Source: a virus. From it: a stretch of DNA of 34,053 nucleotides. The position numbers and the translations under genes are program-made. A model generated the notes under the pieces. That model worked only from the letters and a program-made list of their open reading frames with translations, searched no databases and was not told the origin of the DNA. The stretch's first letter is position 1. Each line of letters starts with the position of its first letter. Of the stretch, positions 21,952 through 34,053 are shown one piece after another. The DNA is taken from the IMG/VR virus record IMGVR_UViG_3300030329_004776, positions 1-34,053 of that record; one strand, written 5' to 3'.

Positions 21952-22206
21952 TTAGAATGGTATCTTGTCATCCTTGAGACTATTACCTTGTGACTTTCCA
22001 GCATTAATTGCTTTACTATCTTCTATATCAAAGAAGTTTATCCAGCCTTCAAAGGTATTCCCAATGGGAACAGAGTCAAGTTTCAATACAAGGTCGCCAT
22101 TATCTTTTTCAAGTAGACCTCCACATTGAATCCATCTGGTTTTAACATTCCCATCTTTATCAGTGTATTCACCGTTGGCAGCAACTGCGTTCTTAATTCG
22201 TCTCAT
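21952..22206 (-). CDS. SSB-like single-stranded DNA-binding protein
   Basis: An 84-residue protein. The body is a short beta-barrel-like run (KNAVAANGEYTDKDGNVKTR, WIQCGGLLEKDNGDLVLKL, FEGWINFFDIED), and it ends SLKDDKIPF. The D-D-x-I-P-F end is the tip by which bacterial SSB recruits its partners, and together with the order SSB, annealing protein, exonuclease it supports an SSB role. It is shorter than bacterial SSB (about 178). The ATG overlaps the upstream TAA, giving translational coupling. The fold is inferred from strands and tail only. Confidence 0.72.
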   Translation of the reverse strand: MRRIKNAVAANGEYTDKDGNVKTRWIQCGGLLEKDNGDLVLKLDSVPIGNTFEGWINFFDIEDSKAINAGKSQGNSLKDDKIPF

Positions 22207-22892
22207 TATTTTTCTCCATTAGTTTTAGTGATCCGACCTATTGCTAGGTTATAGGCATTCTCTAGTTCAGCAGCTTGGTTGAGATAATTTTCTTTGCGTA
22301 GATCTCCAATGAACTTTTTGAATTTATCATCAATTAACTTTTCAATATGAGATTGTTCTGTGCAAGAGTCAAAGGAACTAATGTATGTTGATAGCATACC
22401 ACTACGTTCAGAGCTTAACTTTGCAGGATTCTGTTTGCTATTTTCAGTAGCGTATTCATCCCTCATCTCTTGTACATATTTATTATCATCGAATTTTCCA
22501 AGGAATACATCGGCATTAAATCCAAGATAAGATAAGCATTTGGTTATACCATCAGTAGTAGCCTTTTTAAAACAATCGGTATCCGGGCTTGATTTATTTT
22601 TATCTCTAAATAAACCAGCCTGTCCCCATTGTTCATAGGTCTGGCTTCGATCTCCATGCCATACCTTTACAAGTATACCGAGTTGATCATTGGGAGTGTA
22701 TTCAACTCTTGAAACTTCCCAGCCCCAACCTTGTCCGACTGGTCCGAATGCATTGGTGGCTTCAAGTATCTGTGAGTAAGGATCTATGGCAGTAAACTCA
22801 CGCCCAAGTTTTACTTTCTTGGTGTACTTGGGATTGGTTGTGCTTACTGTATCCCACAGTTCTCTATTCTTTCTTATAATTGGTTTATCCAT
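22206..22892 (-). CDS. Single-strand annealing recombinase (Rad52/ERF-type)
   Basis: A 228-residue protein. The N-terminal half has the Rad52-superfamily layout: REFTAIDPYSQILEATNAFG (helix setting up), PVGQGWGWEVSRVEYT (beta), and TDCFKKATTDGITKCLSYLG then FNADVFLGKFDDNKYV, which resembles the K-x-A-x-T-D-A...G segment of Sak/Rad52 and ERF proteins. The C-terminal part is a charged helical tail. It should bind single strands and anneal complementary DNA. Between SSB-like and exonuclease genes it makes a lambda Red-like cassette. Subfamily is uncertain; the annealing role is fairly likely. Confidence 0.68.
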   Translation of the reverse strand: MDKPIIRKNRELWDTVSTTNPKYTKKVKLGREFTAIDPYSQILEATNAFGPVGQGWGWEVSRVEYTPNDQLGILVKVWHGDRSQTYEQWGQAGLFRDKNKSSPDTDCFKKATTDGITKCLSYLGFNADVFLGKFDDNKYVQEMRDEYATENSKQNPAKLSSERSGMLSTYISSFDSCTEQSHIEKLIDDKFKKFIGDLRKENYLNQAAELENAYNLAIGRITKTNGEK

Positions 22893-22901
22893 TAGTTTCT
22901 C

Positions 22902-23180
22902 CTATCCTTTAAGTTGTCTTGTTTCAAAAAATCCTTCATGCTTTGGATGTTTGTGCATAAAGAGTCGTGCATAATACGGGACATGATGATCATTGATCTT
23001 GAAATCCATGTCATTTGTTTGGATATCATAATGCCAGCGTATAAGCTCAACGATGGTACGAGATGAAAACCTTTTGCGACCTTTGTTAATTGCTTTAAGG
23101 GCCAAGTTTTCAAACAGTTCGTAGACATGGGGGTTCTCTTTATGGAATGTCCACCATTCCTCTTTAAGTTTCTGTGACAT
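22902..23180 (-). CDS. Conserved phage protein of unknown function
   Basis: A 92-residue basic protein, MSQKLKEEWWTFHKENPHVY, with ELFENLALKAINKGRKRFSS, TIVELIRWHYDIQ, then KINDHHVPYYARLFMHKHPK and GFFETRQLKG. The pattern N-P-x-V-Y-x-x-F...G-x-x-x-x-S-x-x-x-I...IRW...INN-x-x-x-P-Y-Y-A-R-x-F...P...G-F-F is recurrent in phages of Proteobacteria, often next to recombination genes. It overlaps the exonuclease gene by 17 bases. A helical DNA-binding fold is plausible, but no function is established to my knowledge. Confidence 0.75.
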   Translation of the reverse strand: MSQKLKEEWWTFHKENPHVYELFENLALKAINKGRKRFSSRTIVELIRWHYDIQTNDMDFKINDHHVPYYARLFMHKHPKHEGFFETRQLKG

Positions 23181-24048
23181 GGAAAGACACTGCTCCTTTA
23201 CGATTTCTTTTAGCTGAAATTCCGTAAGCTGTGATTTCTTTTACATCGTCAGGCATAAGTGCTTTGAAATCTGATTTGATTTCTTTGAGCTTCTTGTCGG
23301 CATTGTGATATTTGGGAAACTCACAGCAAAGATCGACCCATTCGTTGGCGCAGTTCCATGTACTCAAGTCTTTCTCTGTAATAACCCTCATGTTGTTATG
23401 CGTTTGAGTGGGGACATCAACAGGTTCGGGATCAACGGGTGGTATTTTAAGAGTGACATGCTCCCAGAACTTTATAGCTTTGTTAAGAAGGAGATCTTGC
23501 ATCTCATAATTTGCGTGAAGAATAATAGGATGTCCGTAATTGTTACCGTATATGGGAACAATGACTCCTCTTTCGTATCCGGTACACATCATTTGCTGTT
23601 GTATTTGCCATTGATATCTATCGATAACTCTCTCTTCTGCTGTTTGATCTGCCTTATATGATCCTGCATGTGTGTGTTTAAAATCTATTACGGCTTTCTG
23701 TCCGTCCACTATGCCAAGACAGTCGGGTGTAGCTCTCATAAAGTCATGGGTCTTATGGACATAGGAGATTTGATCATATTCATCTCGTAATAATCCTTCT
23801 GCCCATGCGCGAGTATCATCATCGAATAGTTCGGGGTGTTCTTTTAATGTCCAGAATAAATTAAAAGATTCAGTATAAGTACCGAGTTGTACCTGAAATA
23901 TATCACTGAGATCCCGATTGATATTGCCGATTTTTTCTTCGTAAAGATCCAGCCAATTACCAGCCATGATCTCATAGGCCTCTGACGCATTAATATACCT
24001 ACGTCTTTCTTCATTTTCTTCAGGCGTGAAGCTGCTATACATCTTCAT
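23164..24048 (-). CDS. YqaJ/lambda-exonuclease-type recombination nuclease
   Basis: A 294-residue PD-(D/E)XK nuclease. Recognised parts in order: RRRYINASEAYEIMAGN (the conserved SAS-like substrate motif near residue 20), LGTYTESFNL with E60, ATPDCLGIVDGQKAVIDFKH with D109 and D122-x-K124 as metal ligands, and YQWQIQQQMMCTGYERG, the Q-x-Q-x-Q motif of YqaJ exonucleases. It should resect linear duplex DNA 5' to 3' and load the annealing protein. An AAAAAGGAG leader precedes ATG 24048. It leads the recombination operon and is preceded by a structured noncoding region (24083-24142). Confidence 0.88.
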   Translation of the reverse strand: MKMYSSFTPEENEERRRYINASEAYEIMAGNWLDLYEEKIGNINRDLSDIFQVQLGTYTESFNLFWTLKEHPELFDDDTRAWAEGLLRDEYDQISYVHKTHDFMRATPDCLGIVDGQKAVIDFKHTHAGSYKADQTAEERVIDRYQWQIQQQMMCTGYERGVIVPIYGNNYGHPIILHANYEMQDLLLNKAIKFWEHVTLKIPPVDPEPVDVPTQTHNNMRVITEKDLSTWNCANEWVDLCCEFPKYHNADKKLKEIKSDFKALMPDDVKEITAYGISAKRNRKGAVSFHVTET

Positions 24049-24821: not shown

Positions 24822-24867
24822 TATTTGCACTCCTCTAAAATGCTTCAATAAAAAGTGTGGTAGTTTA

Positions 24868-24893
24868 TGCAGTAATGCACTATGTTATGTGCA
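24868..24893 (+). promoter_or_regulatory. Operator-like TGCA repeats before the HTH genes
   Basis: TGCAGTAATGCA (24868-24879) is the third copy of TGCA-N4-TGCA, and TGCAC (24876-24880) also pairs with GTGCA at 24889-24893. The repeats sit between divergent genes and directly before the first HTH gene, as expected for an autoregulated repressor. No convincing -35/-10 pair is visible on the plus strand. Confidence 0.5.
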
Positions 24894-25084
24894 TGACAAA
24901 ATTTTATCCTTACCTGGACCAGTTAATCAGCATAGCAGAAAAACATGAAGTGGATTTACGTGAGGCATGTTTGGCTGCTGGTTTACCTTCATCGACTTAT
25001 TATAGATGGATACAACATAAGTCTCACCCTAACGAGCATAGTGCCAGAACCGTGTTTGAAAAAATAACAGGGATTGACACCTGA
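24893..25084 (+). CDS. Small HTH regulator, Cro/CI-like
   Basis: A 63-residue protein from ATG 24893; in-frame ATGs at 24875 and 24887 are alternatives, but 24875 would put the start codon inside the operator-like repeat. It has an HTH at about residues 20-50: EVDLREACLAAGLPSSTYYR, WIQHKSHPNEHSARTVFEKI. This is the compact phage-repressor pattern in which a recognition helix (PSSTYYRWIQ) is followed by SPNxxTA-like residues. There is no clear ribosome binding site, so translation may be weak or leaderless. The stop overlaps the ATG of the next regulator (TGATG). Likely binds TGCA-N4-TGCA, but which of the two regulators does so is not decidable here. Confidence 0.75.
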   Translation: MTKFYPYLDQLISIAEKHEVDLREACLAAGLPSSTYYRWIQHKSHPNEHSARTVFEKITGIDT

Positions 25085-25317
25085 TGGATGATACCAATCA
25101 CCTTAATGTATGTATCATCAAGCAATTACAAAAGCGTCGAGAAGATCTGGGATTAGCTCAGCGAGATGTTGATGATATAATTGATATGGCATGTGGACTG
25201 GTCGCCAAGTGGGAGACTGGTGTTCGTATTCCAAATGCTGGCTCATTATTAAAGTGGGCGAGTGCATTAGACTGTGTAATAAAAGTTGTACCTAATGACA
25301 CATCCGAACAAACTTAA
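25084..25317 (+). CDS. Xre-family HTH regulator
   Basis: A 77-residue protein with a standard HTH_3 fold at about 10-62: IIKQLQKRREDLGLAQRDVD, DIIDMACGLVAKWETGVRIP, NAGSLLKWASALDCVIKVVP. VAKWETGVRIPNAGSLLKWA is the usual W-E-x-G-x-R-x-P-x-x-x-x-L-x-x-W signature. It is co-translated with the preceding HTH protein. A tandem of two tiny DNA-binding proteins in an otherwise lytic-looking genome suggests control of early genes rather than true lysogeny, since no integrase or partition gene is present. Confidence 0.85.
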   Translation: MDDTNHLNVCIIKQLQKRREDLGLAQRDVDDIIDMACGLVAKWETGVRIPNAGSLLKWASALDCVIKVVPNDTSEQT

Positions 25318-25657
25318 AGGTAATCGTGGTGAGAACCGCATTTGTACAATATTGTGTGATGCTGGTGCTACTGCTGTTCGCGTACCTCTTAGTGGTGCTT
25401 TGGGCGGTGAGTTTTCTGGTGACATACTTATTGATGGAATTATTAAACGTCGCATGGTTGCCGAAGTCAAAAGTCGAAAACCATCTGGCGTTTTTTGGAA
25501 CACTATTAAAAGATTTTTGGCAGAAAATGATATGTTATTTTTACTTGAAGATAGACAGGATCCGTTGGTTGTCATGCCTGTCAATATTTTCACGGAGATC
25601 TTGAATGAAAAAGATAGACAAGATAATCGACCACGCGAGGAAGGGGACAAACCTTAA
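25295..25657 (+). CDS. Holliday junction resolvase-like nuclease (Hjc/PD-(D/E)XK)
   Basis: A 120-residue protein from ATG 25295 (the TTG at 25286 is rejected). It has NKLKGNRGENRICTILCDAG with E13, VPLSGALGGEFSGDILIDG with S41-G-D43, and VAEVKSRKPSG with E57-x-K59, the metal-binding E...D...E-x-K set of archaeal-type Hjc resolvases used by many phages. It should cleave four-way junctions before packaging or after recombination. It is overlapped by 23 bases by the HTH gene and by 53 bases by the 58-residue gene downstream. Its plus-strand location inside the minus-strand recombination block suggests separate control. Confidence 0.85.
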   Translation: MTHPNKLKGNRGENRICTILCDAGATAVRVPLSGALGGEFSGDILIDGIIKRRMVAEVKSRKPSGVFWNTIKRFLAENDMLFLLEDRQDPLVVMPVNIFTEILNEKDRQDNRPREEGDKP

Positions 25658-28573: not shown

Positions 28574-28602
28574 AAAAAGGCCCGCCTGAGTAAGACGGGC
28601 CT
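28574..28602 (-). terminator. Rho-independent terminator of the 28983-28609 gene
   Basis: On the minus strand AGGCCCG (28602-28596) pairs with CGGGCCT (28584-28578), then five T. The loop also contains a CTCAGG that could pair with CCTGG-type bases. A degraded inverted copy of the same terminator ends the pseudogene on the plus strand near 29670-29699. Confidence 0.85.
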
Positions 28603-28608
28603 GGTTCT

Positions 28609-28983
28609 TTAGCCTACGTTGCGCTTTTTCCAGAACTCTCGAGTTGCTGTTTTGTTTTTGTTGGTGAGAGATTTCTTTGATGCAGGTTTCCATTCAGAGC
28701 CAGTAACTTCTTTGAATGCGGCTTTTGCTAGAGCGTGGACTTCCTCAAAGACTTCCAGTTGAGCTTCACGATACATAGTCTGCTCTTGAAGTCTTAAGAG
28801 CTTGTATTCGTTGTCTTCTTTTATTGCCTGTTCAGCGTCTCTTCCAAGATCACCTATGGCTACATTTTGAAAGTTAATATCATTTTGACTTGAATAGCAC
28901 AAATTCCGAAGAGTTTGGGAGACTACCCATTCCGGGGTGTTCTTGTGAGACAAAAGATTTACAAGTTCTTTAAGATTTTCCAT
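28609..28983 (-). CDS. Early hypothetical protein, intact member of the inverted duplication
   Basis: A 124-residue helical protein: MENLKELVNLLSHKNTPEWV, VSQTLRNLCYSSQNDINFQN, DAEQAIKEDNEYKLLRLQEQ, TMYREAQLEVFEEVHALAKA, AFKEVTGSEWKPASKKSLTN. It has an acidic middle and a basic tail and no recognised family. It is a monocistronic unit: a promoter region with the palindrome TGACA-N4-TGTCA upstream, a GAGGATAAG leader, and its own terminator at 28574-28602. The same gene, leader and terminator exist as a decayed inverted copy at 29191-29700. Being first to be read from the divergence point, it may be an early host-takeover protein, but that is inference. Confidence 0.75.
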   Translation of the reverse strand: MENLKELVNLLSHKNTPEWVVSQTLRNLCYSSQNDINFQNVAIGDLGRDAEQAIKEDNEYKLLRLQEQTMYREAQLEVFEEVHALAKAAFKEVTGSEWKPASKKSLTNKNKTATREFWKKRNVG

Positions 28984-29010
28984 TGGTTTTACTTATCCTC
29001 AATAAAAATA

Positions 29011-29024
29011 TGACAGTATTGTCA
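29011..29024. promoter_or_regulatory. Palindrome TGACA-N4-TGTCA, operator candidate
   Basis: TGACAGTATTGTCA is perfectly symmetric in its five outer pairs and lies 28-41 bases upstream of the 28983 start codon, in the promoter zone. Its copy in the other arm (29203-29216, TGACAATACTGGCA) has lost one base of the symmetry, consistent with relaxed selection there. Confidence 0.45.
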
Positions 29025-29064
29025 CGCACACTGAGGTTCCAGAAAATTCGAACTGTCCACATGA

Positions 29065-29073
29065 TTATGCACA
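29065..29073 (+). promoter_or_regulatory. DnaA-box-like 9-mer near the duplication axis
   Basis: TTATGCACA fits the DnaA-box consensus TTATNCACA. A near-match, TTATCCTCA, lies at 28993-29001. Both are in the noncoding divergence region, and the phage encodes a DnaA domain IV protein. One box by itself can occur by chance. Confidence 0.4.
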
Positions 29074-29136
29074 CGAGGCATCAACACCAACACAACAGAA
29101 GACGGCAAGAAAGAACGCAAGCCCCCGCACAACAGT

Positions 29137-29700
29137 CACACATAATCCTGTTGACAGCAGAGAATAGGGCGCACTTGCGCCCGGTTTCTGGATACCGTGC
29201 CGTGACAATACTGGCATGCTTATTTTTATCGAGGATAAGTGAAATCAATCCTTGGAAAAGCTCAAAGAACTTCCTTGTAAATCTATTGGACCACAAGAAC
29301 ACCCCGGAATGGGTTCTGAGTCGAGCCAATGATTCGGGATTTGTGCTATTCAAGTGGGATGGCGGGTGGGATGTTTATGTATATTAACTTTCAAAATGAT
29401 ATATGTAGCCATAGGTGAACTTGGAAAAGACGCTGAATATATGTAGGCAATAGAAGATGACGATGAATACTTTATGCTCGCCTAACTGAAAGTGCAGACT
29501 ATGTTTCGTGAAGATCAATGGTTACGGCTTTGATAAAGTCCACACTCTAGCAAAAGCCTCAGAAGTTACTGGATCTGAATGGACACCGGAGTCAAAGGAA
29601 GCGTGAACCCACAAAAACAAGCAACTCGGAGTTCTGGAACAAGCAAGCAACGTAGCCTGGCTAAAGAACCAGGCTCGTTGTCTCAGGCGTCTCCTTTTTG
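29137..29700 (+). repeat. Right arm of the inverted duplication (decayed)
   Basis: Diverged inverted copy of 28574-29078. It has gained a 16-base GC hairpin (GGGCGC-ACTT-GCGCCC, 29167-29182), which shifts the symmetry axis from about 29105 to 29113.5, and a G-rich insertion around 29353-29375. The gene it carried is disrupted and its terminator has lost pairing. Confidence 0.85.
29252..29664 (+). pseudogene. Decayed inverted copy of the 28983-28609 gene
   Basis: The plus-strand sequence follows the coding sequence of the intact gene but the start is TTG instead of ATG, two bases (CC) are inserted after codon seven, a G-rich insertion lies near 29353-29375, and later segments carry stops and indels. 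Recognisable remnants in shifting frames correspond to HKNTPEW, FQND, LGKDAE, EDDDEYF, QTMFRED and VTGSEWTP of the intact protein. The end coincides with TAA before the old terminator. The long plus-strand frame 28983-29387 is only an accident of the repeat. The decay is clear; its age is not measurable here. Confidence 0.82.
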
Positions 29701-29808: not shown

Positions 29809-29839
29809 TTGACATTAGCCGCCAAATCCCCCCTATATA
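29809..29839 (+). promoter_or_regulatory. Possible late promoter before the terminase genes
   Basis: TTGACA at 29809-29814 and TATATA at 29834-29839 with a 19-base spacer, longer than the ideal 17. A CCCCC-AGC-GGGGG hairpin follows at once. It is the only promoter-like pair seen between the pseudogene and the first late gene. The rest of 29665-29808 holds short inverted repeats (GTTCGC/GCGAAC 29758-29787; AGACGGA/TCCGTCT 29701-29796) and no gene. Confidence 0.4.
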
Positions 29840-29880
29840 CCCCCCAGCGGGGGTGCAGGGGGAGAAAGGAGAAAAGGTCT

Positions 29881-30306
29881 ATGTCATCCGGTGGTAAGGG
29901 TTATCTCAGTAAGAATCACCCGGACTTCAAGACAAAACTGGACGCAGCTGAAGACAGAAAGAAAAGACTGTCTCCCCTGCGTAGACGTATCATCGAGCAC
30001 ATCGTGGCTACAGGTGATAACCAAAGCGCAACCGCTAGAGCATTGGAATGTAACAGGGTATCAGTCGCCAAAGCTCTGGCCGACCCAAGAGTACAGGAGG
30101 AATTGCACAGGCAAGTAGGGGATAAGCTTAGTCTAGCCTCCGCCATAGCTGGCAATACTCTGGTAAATCTGGCATCAAAGGGTAAATCGGAGTACGTACA
30201 GCTACAAGCTGCCGACAGTATTCTGGATCGTACAGGATTCAAACCGCCTGACAGGCAGATGCATGCAGTCCAGGGGGATATACGTATCAGCATCGACTTG
30301 GGGTAG
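29881..30306 (+). CDS. Terminase small subunit (putative)
   Basis: A 141-residue protein from ATG 29881 (AAAGGAGAAAAGG leader); the upstream in-frame TTG at 29809 would remove the promoter and is rejected. Residues about 30-72 form a small-terminase-type HTH: RRIIEHIVATGDNQSATARA, LECNRVSVAKALADPRVQEE. The rest is helical and ends with an acidic/hydrophobic tail, DRQMHAVQGDIRISIDLG, normal for small terminases. It should recognise the packaging site and stimulate the large subunit. It is separated from terL by four small genes, unusual spacing but not rare in this phage type. Confidence 0.8.
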   Translation: MSSGGKGYLSKNHPDFKTKLDAAEDRKKRLSPLRRRIIEHIVATGDNQSATARALECNRVSVAKALADPRVQEELHRQVGDKLSLASAIAGNTLVNLASKGKSEYVQLQAADSILDRTGFKPPDRQMHAVQGDIRISIDLG

Positions 30307-33658: not shown

Positions 33659-34053
33659 TGGGTTTTGGTTCTGATGGTGGAGATGCAGGTGGCGATAGTG
33701 TCGAATATGATGAGCCACAAGATCCTGCGGTCTATACTCTAGAGGGGCAACAGACTGCCGTACCCGGTGTACCGGGGACCGGGTTAGGTCTTAGTACGGT
33801 TGAAGGAGCCATGAACTCGTGGCTCGGTGACACCAGAACTGATCAGGAAAGTTATAATGATGCGGCGGTTACGAAAGCACTTCAAGAAGGAAATCCTACA
33901 TTTAGGGATGCGCGTGGAAACGAGCGGTCAGTTTCAGGTTACGAAAGGGATTTTAGTCCACCAGAACCGGATAGTGCGCTGGATAAAATGGGTCGCGGAC
34001 GGATGGCATTGGGTCCGGTGCAGTTATTAACATCAGCGGCGACGGGTGGTTTG
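33658..34053 (+). CDS. Head-region protein between terminase and portal, 5' part
   Basis: It starts at ATG 33658 on the stop of the previous gene and is open to the window end, continuing at base 1 (see 1-549). It begins MGFGSDGGDAGGDSVEYDEP and then overlaps the left-end copy. Compared with that copy, residue changes include Q to P, N to G, I to L, G to S, T to E and T to A in about 110 shared codons, against few silent changes. Function not recognised. Confidence 0.7.
   Translation, partial: MGFGSDGGDAGGDSVEYDEPQDPAVYTLEGQQTAVPGVPGTGLGLSTVEGAMNSWLGDTRTDQESYNDAAVTKALQEGNPTFRDARGNERSVSGYERDFSPPEPDSALDKMGRGRMALGPVQLLTSAATGGL
33721..34053 (+). repeat. Terminal copy of bases 1-333 (circular junction, about 97 % identical)
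   Basis: The last 333 bases match the first 333 with 11 substitutions and no gap. This is what an assembly of a circular or circularly permuted genome gives when the two ends come from slightly different members of a population. True terminal repeats of one virion would normally be identical. Confidence 0.9.

Follow-up and report, generated by a model that had tools for sequence, protein, structure and literature searches.

A putative rod-like RNA formed by an early gene and its imperfect mirror copy in a family of marine phages

Hairpin RNA (hpRNA) loci and young plant miRNA genes of eukaryotes arise by inverted duplication, and their product is processed by Dicer. In phages P1 and P7, the c4 antisense RNA is short and shares one strand with its target. 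Among longer structured RNAs, the cabRNA of about 400 nt that derives from terS-terL of staphylococcal phages activates CBASS (PMC10686824), and several of the large structured non-coding RNAs GOLLD, ROOL and OLE are phage-associated (PMC12286853). Obelisks and viroid-like RNAs, in turn, are RNA replicons of ~1 kb that have a rod-like fold and no DNA copy (PMC11922315).

The present analysis concerns a viral DNA stretch of 34,053 nucleotides (the window; IMG/VR record IMGVR_UViG_3300030329_004776), whose TerL shares 60% identity with its counterpart in the Pelagibacter phage EXVC031P Hodr. Between the first early gene of the window, here called G, and the terminase small subunit gene terS, an inverted copy of G faces the gene itself, and the plus strand (the terS direction) of the segment 28574-29699 probably specifies a long RNA element folded into a bulged rod, with the apparent pseudogene as its 3' arm (Table 1). 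The locus is like the hpRNA and plant miRNA loci in that an inverted copy of a gene segment gives a long imperfect hairpin with one arm antisense to the source gene, but the bacterial host has no machinery comparable to Dicer, and the phage mirror arm keeps following its gene across very diverged genomes. As with P1/P7 c4, antisense and target adjoin in a phage regulatory region, although the asymmetry described below shows the anti-G sequence pairing with the mirror arm and not with the G message. The analogy to cabRNA is one of place and structure rather than of membership: the predicted rod would likewise be a structured phage RNA of the terminase region, but cabRNA lies inside terS-terL and is not described as a rod of gene and mirror copy, and no sequence link is expected. 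The two gene-length arms and the absence of an Rfam match set the rod apart from GOLLD, ROOL and OLE; with Obelisks and viroid-like RNAs it shares a size of ~1 kb and a predicted rod-like RNA fold, but it resides in the genome of a dsDNA phage, and the ORF it carries is not known as an Oblin. Specifically, the covariance models of Rfam 15 gave no match at the gathering threshold in the window and 12 related loci, and a literature search of open-access papers found no description of the element, which is weak evidence of novelty.

Table 1. Features of the inverted repeat and its right flank in the window
Feature	Position	Strand	Evidence and remarks
Predicted rod, 5' arm (plus-strand reading)	28574-29069	+	Antisense to G together with leader and terminator; alignment, fold, covariation with L004
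Intrinsic terminator of G, predicted base of the rod	28574-28604	-	From sequence
Gene G, 124 aa, first early gene	28609-28983	-	Predicted all-helical; family common to the Hodr homologue and other loci
Palindromic site TGACAGTATTGTCA, 5' of G	29011-29024		From sequence
Apical part (loop region) separating the arms	29070-29140	+	
Mirror arm (M), predicted 3' arm of the rod	29141-29699	+	Non-coding copy of G: bulges, G.U pairs, start codon gone
Side hairpin GGGCGCACTTGCGCCC, insert on the M side	29167-29182	+	Comparably placed hairpins occur in other lineages
Mirror of the palindromic site, TGACAATACTGGCA, symmetry broken	29203-29216		Sequence and arm alignment
Likely late promoter TTGACA-N19-TATATA, 3' of the rod	29809-29839	+	L006 has one before terS too; many loci have TTGACA-N17/19 boxes
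terS, terminase small subunit gene, right neighbour	29881-30306	+	PHROG 2538, E 3e-14

A preliminary description of this DNA had recognized an inverted duplication whose left arm keeps an intact gene with its palindromic site, leader and terminator, and whose right arm holds degraded counterparts of all four. Pairwise alignment of the arms agrees with this account, coordinates included. The reverse complement of 28574-29069 aligns locally to 29141-29699 with a score of 520, far above the maximum of 69 among 300 shuffles, and with 414 identities in 580 columns (87% identity, gaps excluded); the runner-up inverted repeat elsewhere in the window scores 77, which makes 28574-29699 the sole such repeat of the genome. 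The 124-aa ORF of the left arm is confirmed. In the right arm the start codon is lost (ATG to TTG at 29253), numerous inserts of 4 and 7 nt break the reading frame, and the mirrored terminator of G (29669-29699) is weakened; without a start codon or an unbroken frame, this arm has lost its coding function as a pseudogene would. The plus-strand fold of the window pairs 28574 with 29699, and the longest uninterrupted helix of the predicted rod is 23. The idea that uninterrupted helices never exceed 10 bp, as if to escape a double-strand nuclease, was considered and rejected as a general rule, being true in Hodr (maximum 10, 20 expected) and not in the window.

The G protein has no significant match in Pfam and PHROGs, and at the search sensitivity used no relatives were found in GenBank phages and GTDB genomes beyond Hodr and L003. 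Its AlphaFold2 model (pLDDT 83.7) has four helices, a fold that says little. The Hodr gene at the matching place is a distant homologue of G (27-29% identity), and between phages G diverges down to 20-30% identity; the mirror arm nonetheless follows its own G each time.

Several other features of the window genome were recorded. Its two ends (1-333 and 33721-34053) repeat one another over 333 bp, differing by 11 substitutions without any indel; assembly of a circular or terminally redundant genome of ~33.7 kb from mixed strains would look like this. On the plus strand, two small HTH genes (24857-25084 and 25084-25317, the latter HTH_3) and a further ORF (24857-25657 in all) oppose the surrounding early genes. 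On the minus strand, 22206-24048 holds a YqaJ-type exonuclease (Pfam PF09588) and an adjoining ORF, which may, judged by position only, encode a single-strand annealing protein.

The inverted repeat is genuine, and dozens of related phages have one at the same place. In the cultured phage Hodr, a long inverted repeat likewise lies between G and terS, with a mirror arm that enters the start of terS; its core arms of ~330 nt (262 matches, 22 mismatches, 42 indels) reach a score of 178, where random sequence attains 34 at most, and a rod is predicted in 9/9 Hodr-like contigs with enough upstream sequence. A terS-based search of IMG/VR gave 69 testable loci, at which a rod was called when the arms scored at least 40 (shuffled maximum 33); 40 of the 69 carry one, whereas 58 control windows taken at these loci contain none. 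The loci belong to related phages, so that their counts are not independent events, and the mismatch statistics below use 30 non-redundant lineages. The remaining 29 have no clear rod and include the L006-related group, whose TerS is closest to that of the window; a GU-aware rod search in 30 negative loci came out near noise. The contig L007, picked up through a match to the motif GGATGGCGGGTGGGATGT, proved to be unrelated and to match by chance. Of the states that the preliminary description proposed to seek in related phages, genomes with one arm (L006 and L029-L031) were found and mirrored non-coding arms are common, while an intact second G was seen in none of the loci inspected.

The arms vary in length from about 45 to 540 bp. 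In loci with a placed start, the inner arm end lies 47-76 nt upstream of the G start codon; the outer end ranges from 34 nt of the ORF up to the whole gene and terminator, and several lineages end just past the G terminator. In L099, L067 and L094 the rod is confined to the leader and stops before the start of G. The 5' arm of the window, and of most lineages where the start could be placed, complements the G message without a mismatch, through both the ribosome site and the start codon. Many lineages extend the pairing into the apical palindrome and have side hairpins on one strand. A short recurring motif like GCGAAGCAC / GGGCGGAGCAC was also noted beside the apical stem, on the M side of the rod, in L099, L103 and L067.

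A second strain bears on the concern that the right arm might be an assembly chimera. The contig IMGVR_UViG_3300030107_005564 (L003/L004) has both arms, the same right-arm inserts as the window, near-identical flanks and a TerS protein that is 100% identical; the repeat is not an assembly chimera. The mid-arm sequences of the window and L004 differ within a covarying block of ~60 nt, inside which the inserts persist, and the right arm tracks the left within each strain; independent decay of the right arm therefore does not explain the pattern. Between the two, 20 pairs have changed on both sides (0-3 with slid partners), and double changes number 13 in the L073 group (2-4 slid) and 42 cells in the Hodr group (3-15 slid), with the proviso that the structures were predicted from the tested alignments themselves, which favours them, that the slid control has the same weakness and that the window alignment consists of two rows. 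In all three comparisons, the compensatory changes expected of a structured non-coding RNA thus stand above the slid controls. Synonymous variability of G codons in the Hodr group, furthermore, is 32% under the rod and 69% outside it (p 7e-4), which is consistent with constraint at the nucleotide level, although 5' gene ends are often conserved anyway.

The differences between the arms are those that an RNA helix on the terS-direction strand would tolerate. When mismatches are read as RNA in the terS direction over the 30 lineages, G.U is the most frequent (300), followed by G.A (214), U.U (108), C.U (85), G.G (60), A.C (47), A.A (28) and C.C (17); read on the opposite strand, the ranking is the reverse of RNA stability. 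The excess of G.U over A.C has p=3e-46 for all mismatches and persists for isolated mismatches flanked by pairs (119 to 15, p 3e-21). It is visible in single loci, with G.U:A.C counts of 33:0 in L100, 33:1 in L066 and 26:4 in L004. The window by itself is weak at 14:7, so that the inference for the window leans partly on its relatives, and the Hodr group has no asymmetry (7:7); the strand-specific tolerance of G.U that marks a structured non-coding RNA is accordingly found over the lineages and absent in that group. The terS-direction fold is the more stable one in 30/32 loci, by as much as 137 kcal/mol in L068, and the window folds at -598.3 in the terS direction as against -575.5 on the other strand. 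Background G+T of terS and the late genes on that strand is about 0.47-0.56, and a 6:1 ratio is therefore not explained by general strand bias. A P1 c4-type pairing with the G message was considered as the selected duplex and rejected, as the wobble asymmetry falls on the other strand.

Promoter-like sites stand out in the terS leaders (combined p 1e-5). A scan for sigma-70-like promoters before the rod (combined p 0.9) and in the rod centre found no enrichment, and for the rod and for G it gave nothing above shuffles, sigma-70-like promoters appearing in the terS leader only. Directly 5' of terS, the window (29809-29880) and L043, L066, L073 and L087 have conserved TTGACA boxes that resemble late promoters, after which comes a G-tract leader (such as GGGGGGGAACACAAGGGGGGG). 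In the interval from rod to terS, L064, L049, L073 and L087 have a second structured-looking stretch (GCAACGTCCGTCAGTGC ... GCTGTCGCAACGGCC), conserved among them and with no Rfam match. Hodr (L008) carries a near-consensus TTGACA-N17-TATACT on the minus strand (12129-12100), within the mirror arm and partly made of bases missing in the G arm.

We infer that the plus strand is transcribed as one RNA spanning both arms. The rod may function as a self-masked antisense or a target mimic of G, a role that we favour with reserve on three grounds: the way the locus is built makes one arm complement the G message perfectly, neither end of the arms strays from that message in several lineages, and a perfect target could displace an imperfect mirror. 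Specifically, the 5' arm would act as the antisense of the first early gene, matching its message perfectly in the leader and, in most lineages, across the ribosome site and start codon, and the 3' arm would be the mirror copy, no longer coding and preserved for the sake of base pairing. The imperfect mirror arm would mask the 5' arm until the G message, a perfect match, displaces the mirror arm at the bulges; in this way the rod would determine how much G is present, or when, at the early/late switch. A strict antisense role at the start codon is weakened by L099, L067 and L094, where the rod falls short of that codon. The broader proposal is more tentative still: a family of marine podovirus-type phages might control its early/late switch by an RNA that combines its first early gene with a mirror copy that stays permanently imperfect, a self-masked antisense rod whose pairing is kept by compensatory change over deep divergence.

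The main rival to antisense control grants the RNA rod but assigns it a job of its own, as a scaffold, a packaging-related RNA or a decoy for host proteins that bind or sense double-stranded RNA, with the overlap with G owed to genome compactness. Such a job would suit the recurring side hairpins and apical stem-loop, the three lineages in which the rod does not reach the G ORF, the Hodr rod that enters the terS coding sequence, and the structured RNAs that some staphylococcal phages make from terS-terL (PMC10686824). We nevertheless consider it somewhat unlikely, since one arm always starts 47-76 nt before G where starts are placed, and some arms end past the G terminator, which ties the element to the G message.

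Selection might also act on a hairpin of plus-strand single-stranded DNA, for instance a replication or packaging signal, in place of an RNA. The full order of mismatches, with G.U, G.A and U.U above C.U, A.C, A.A and C.C, fits RNA helices well and makes a DNA hairpin improbable, even though G.T is the best-tolerated mismatch in DNA also, and better than A.C, the repeat adjoins terS, and the promoter scan found no promoter for an RNA. Extrusion as a cruciform, which the preliminary description had suggested, is disfavoured: with both strands folded, as in a cruciform, the arm differences should have no strand preference, and the counts of 300 and 47 show one.

Concerted evolution without selection, by gene conversion or template switching between the arms, earns little credence as a full account and may supply some of the mirrored changes. 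The ~60-nt covarying block is what it would produce, and the phage encodes a YqaJ exonuclease (domain in 23164-24048) and probably an annealing protein too. Conversion should, however, erase the inserts, which persist inside the block; it predicts no asymmetry of G.U over A.C, and the uninterrupted matches in Hodr (at most 10 nt) are short for homologous recombination.

That the right arm, an inverted copy of G from long ago, has no function and simply drifts, as the preliminary description held, is now very improbable. An early gene was indeed copied in inverted orientation, and the copy is non-coding; the lost start codon, frameshifts and weakened terminator fit drift, as does the excess of right-arm-only over left-arm-only changes between the window and L004 (44 against 20 columns). 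What does not hold is that the copy is being lost. Neutral decay would leave strand-symmetric differences, whereas those seen are of the kind an RNA helix tolerates; it predicts neither mirrored changes between strains nor recurrence, and the arms covary, 40/69 loci carry the repeat and each mirror arm tracks its own G. Least probable of all is strand-biased mutation by deamination of A and C on the plus strand: deamination does yield A to G and C to T, but G.A also exceeds C.U, U.U exceeds A.A and G.G exceeds C.C, all toward pairing stability, and the G+T content of terS and the late genes is far from what a 6:1 bias would give; a purely local bias is improbable rather than excluded.

If the rod is expressed, it would be a long structured RNA element that is widespread in abundant marine phages, including one that infects SAR11, and undescribed in Rfam, which annotation has missed, as one half looks like a gene and the other like a pseudogene. 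It would constitute a counterpart in prokaryotic viruses of the hairpin RNAs born from inverted gene duplication, as well as an example of a 'pseudogene' retained for base pairing. The asymmetry of mismatches between the arms of inverted repeats would offer a simple and general test to tell RNA-level selection from decay.
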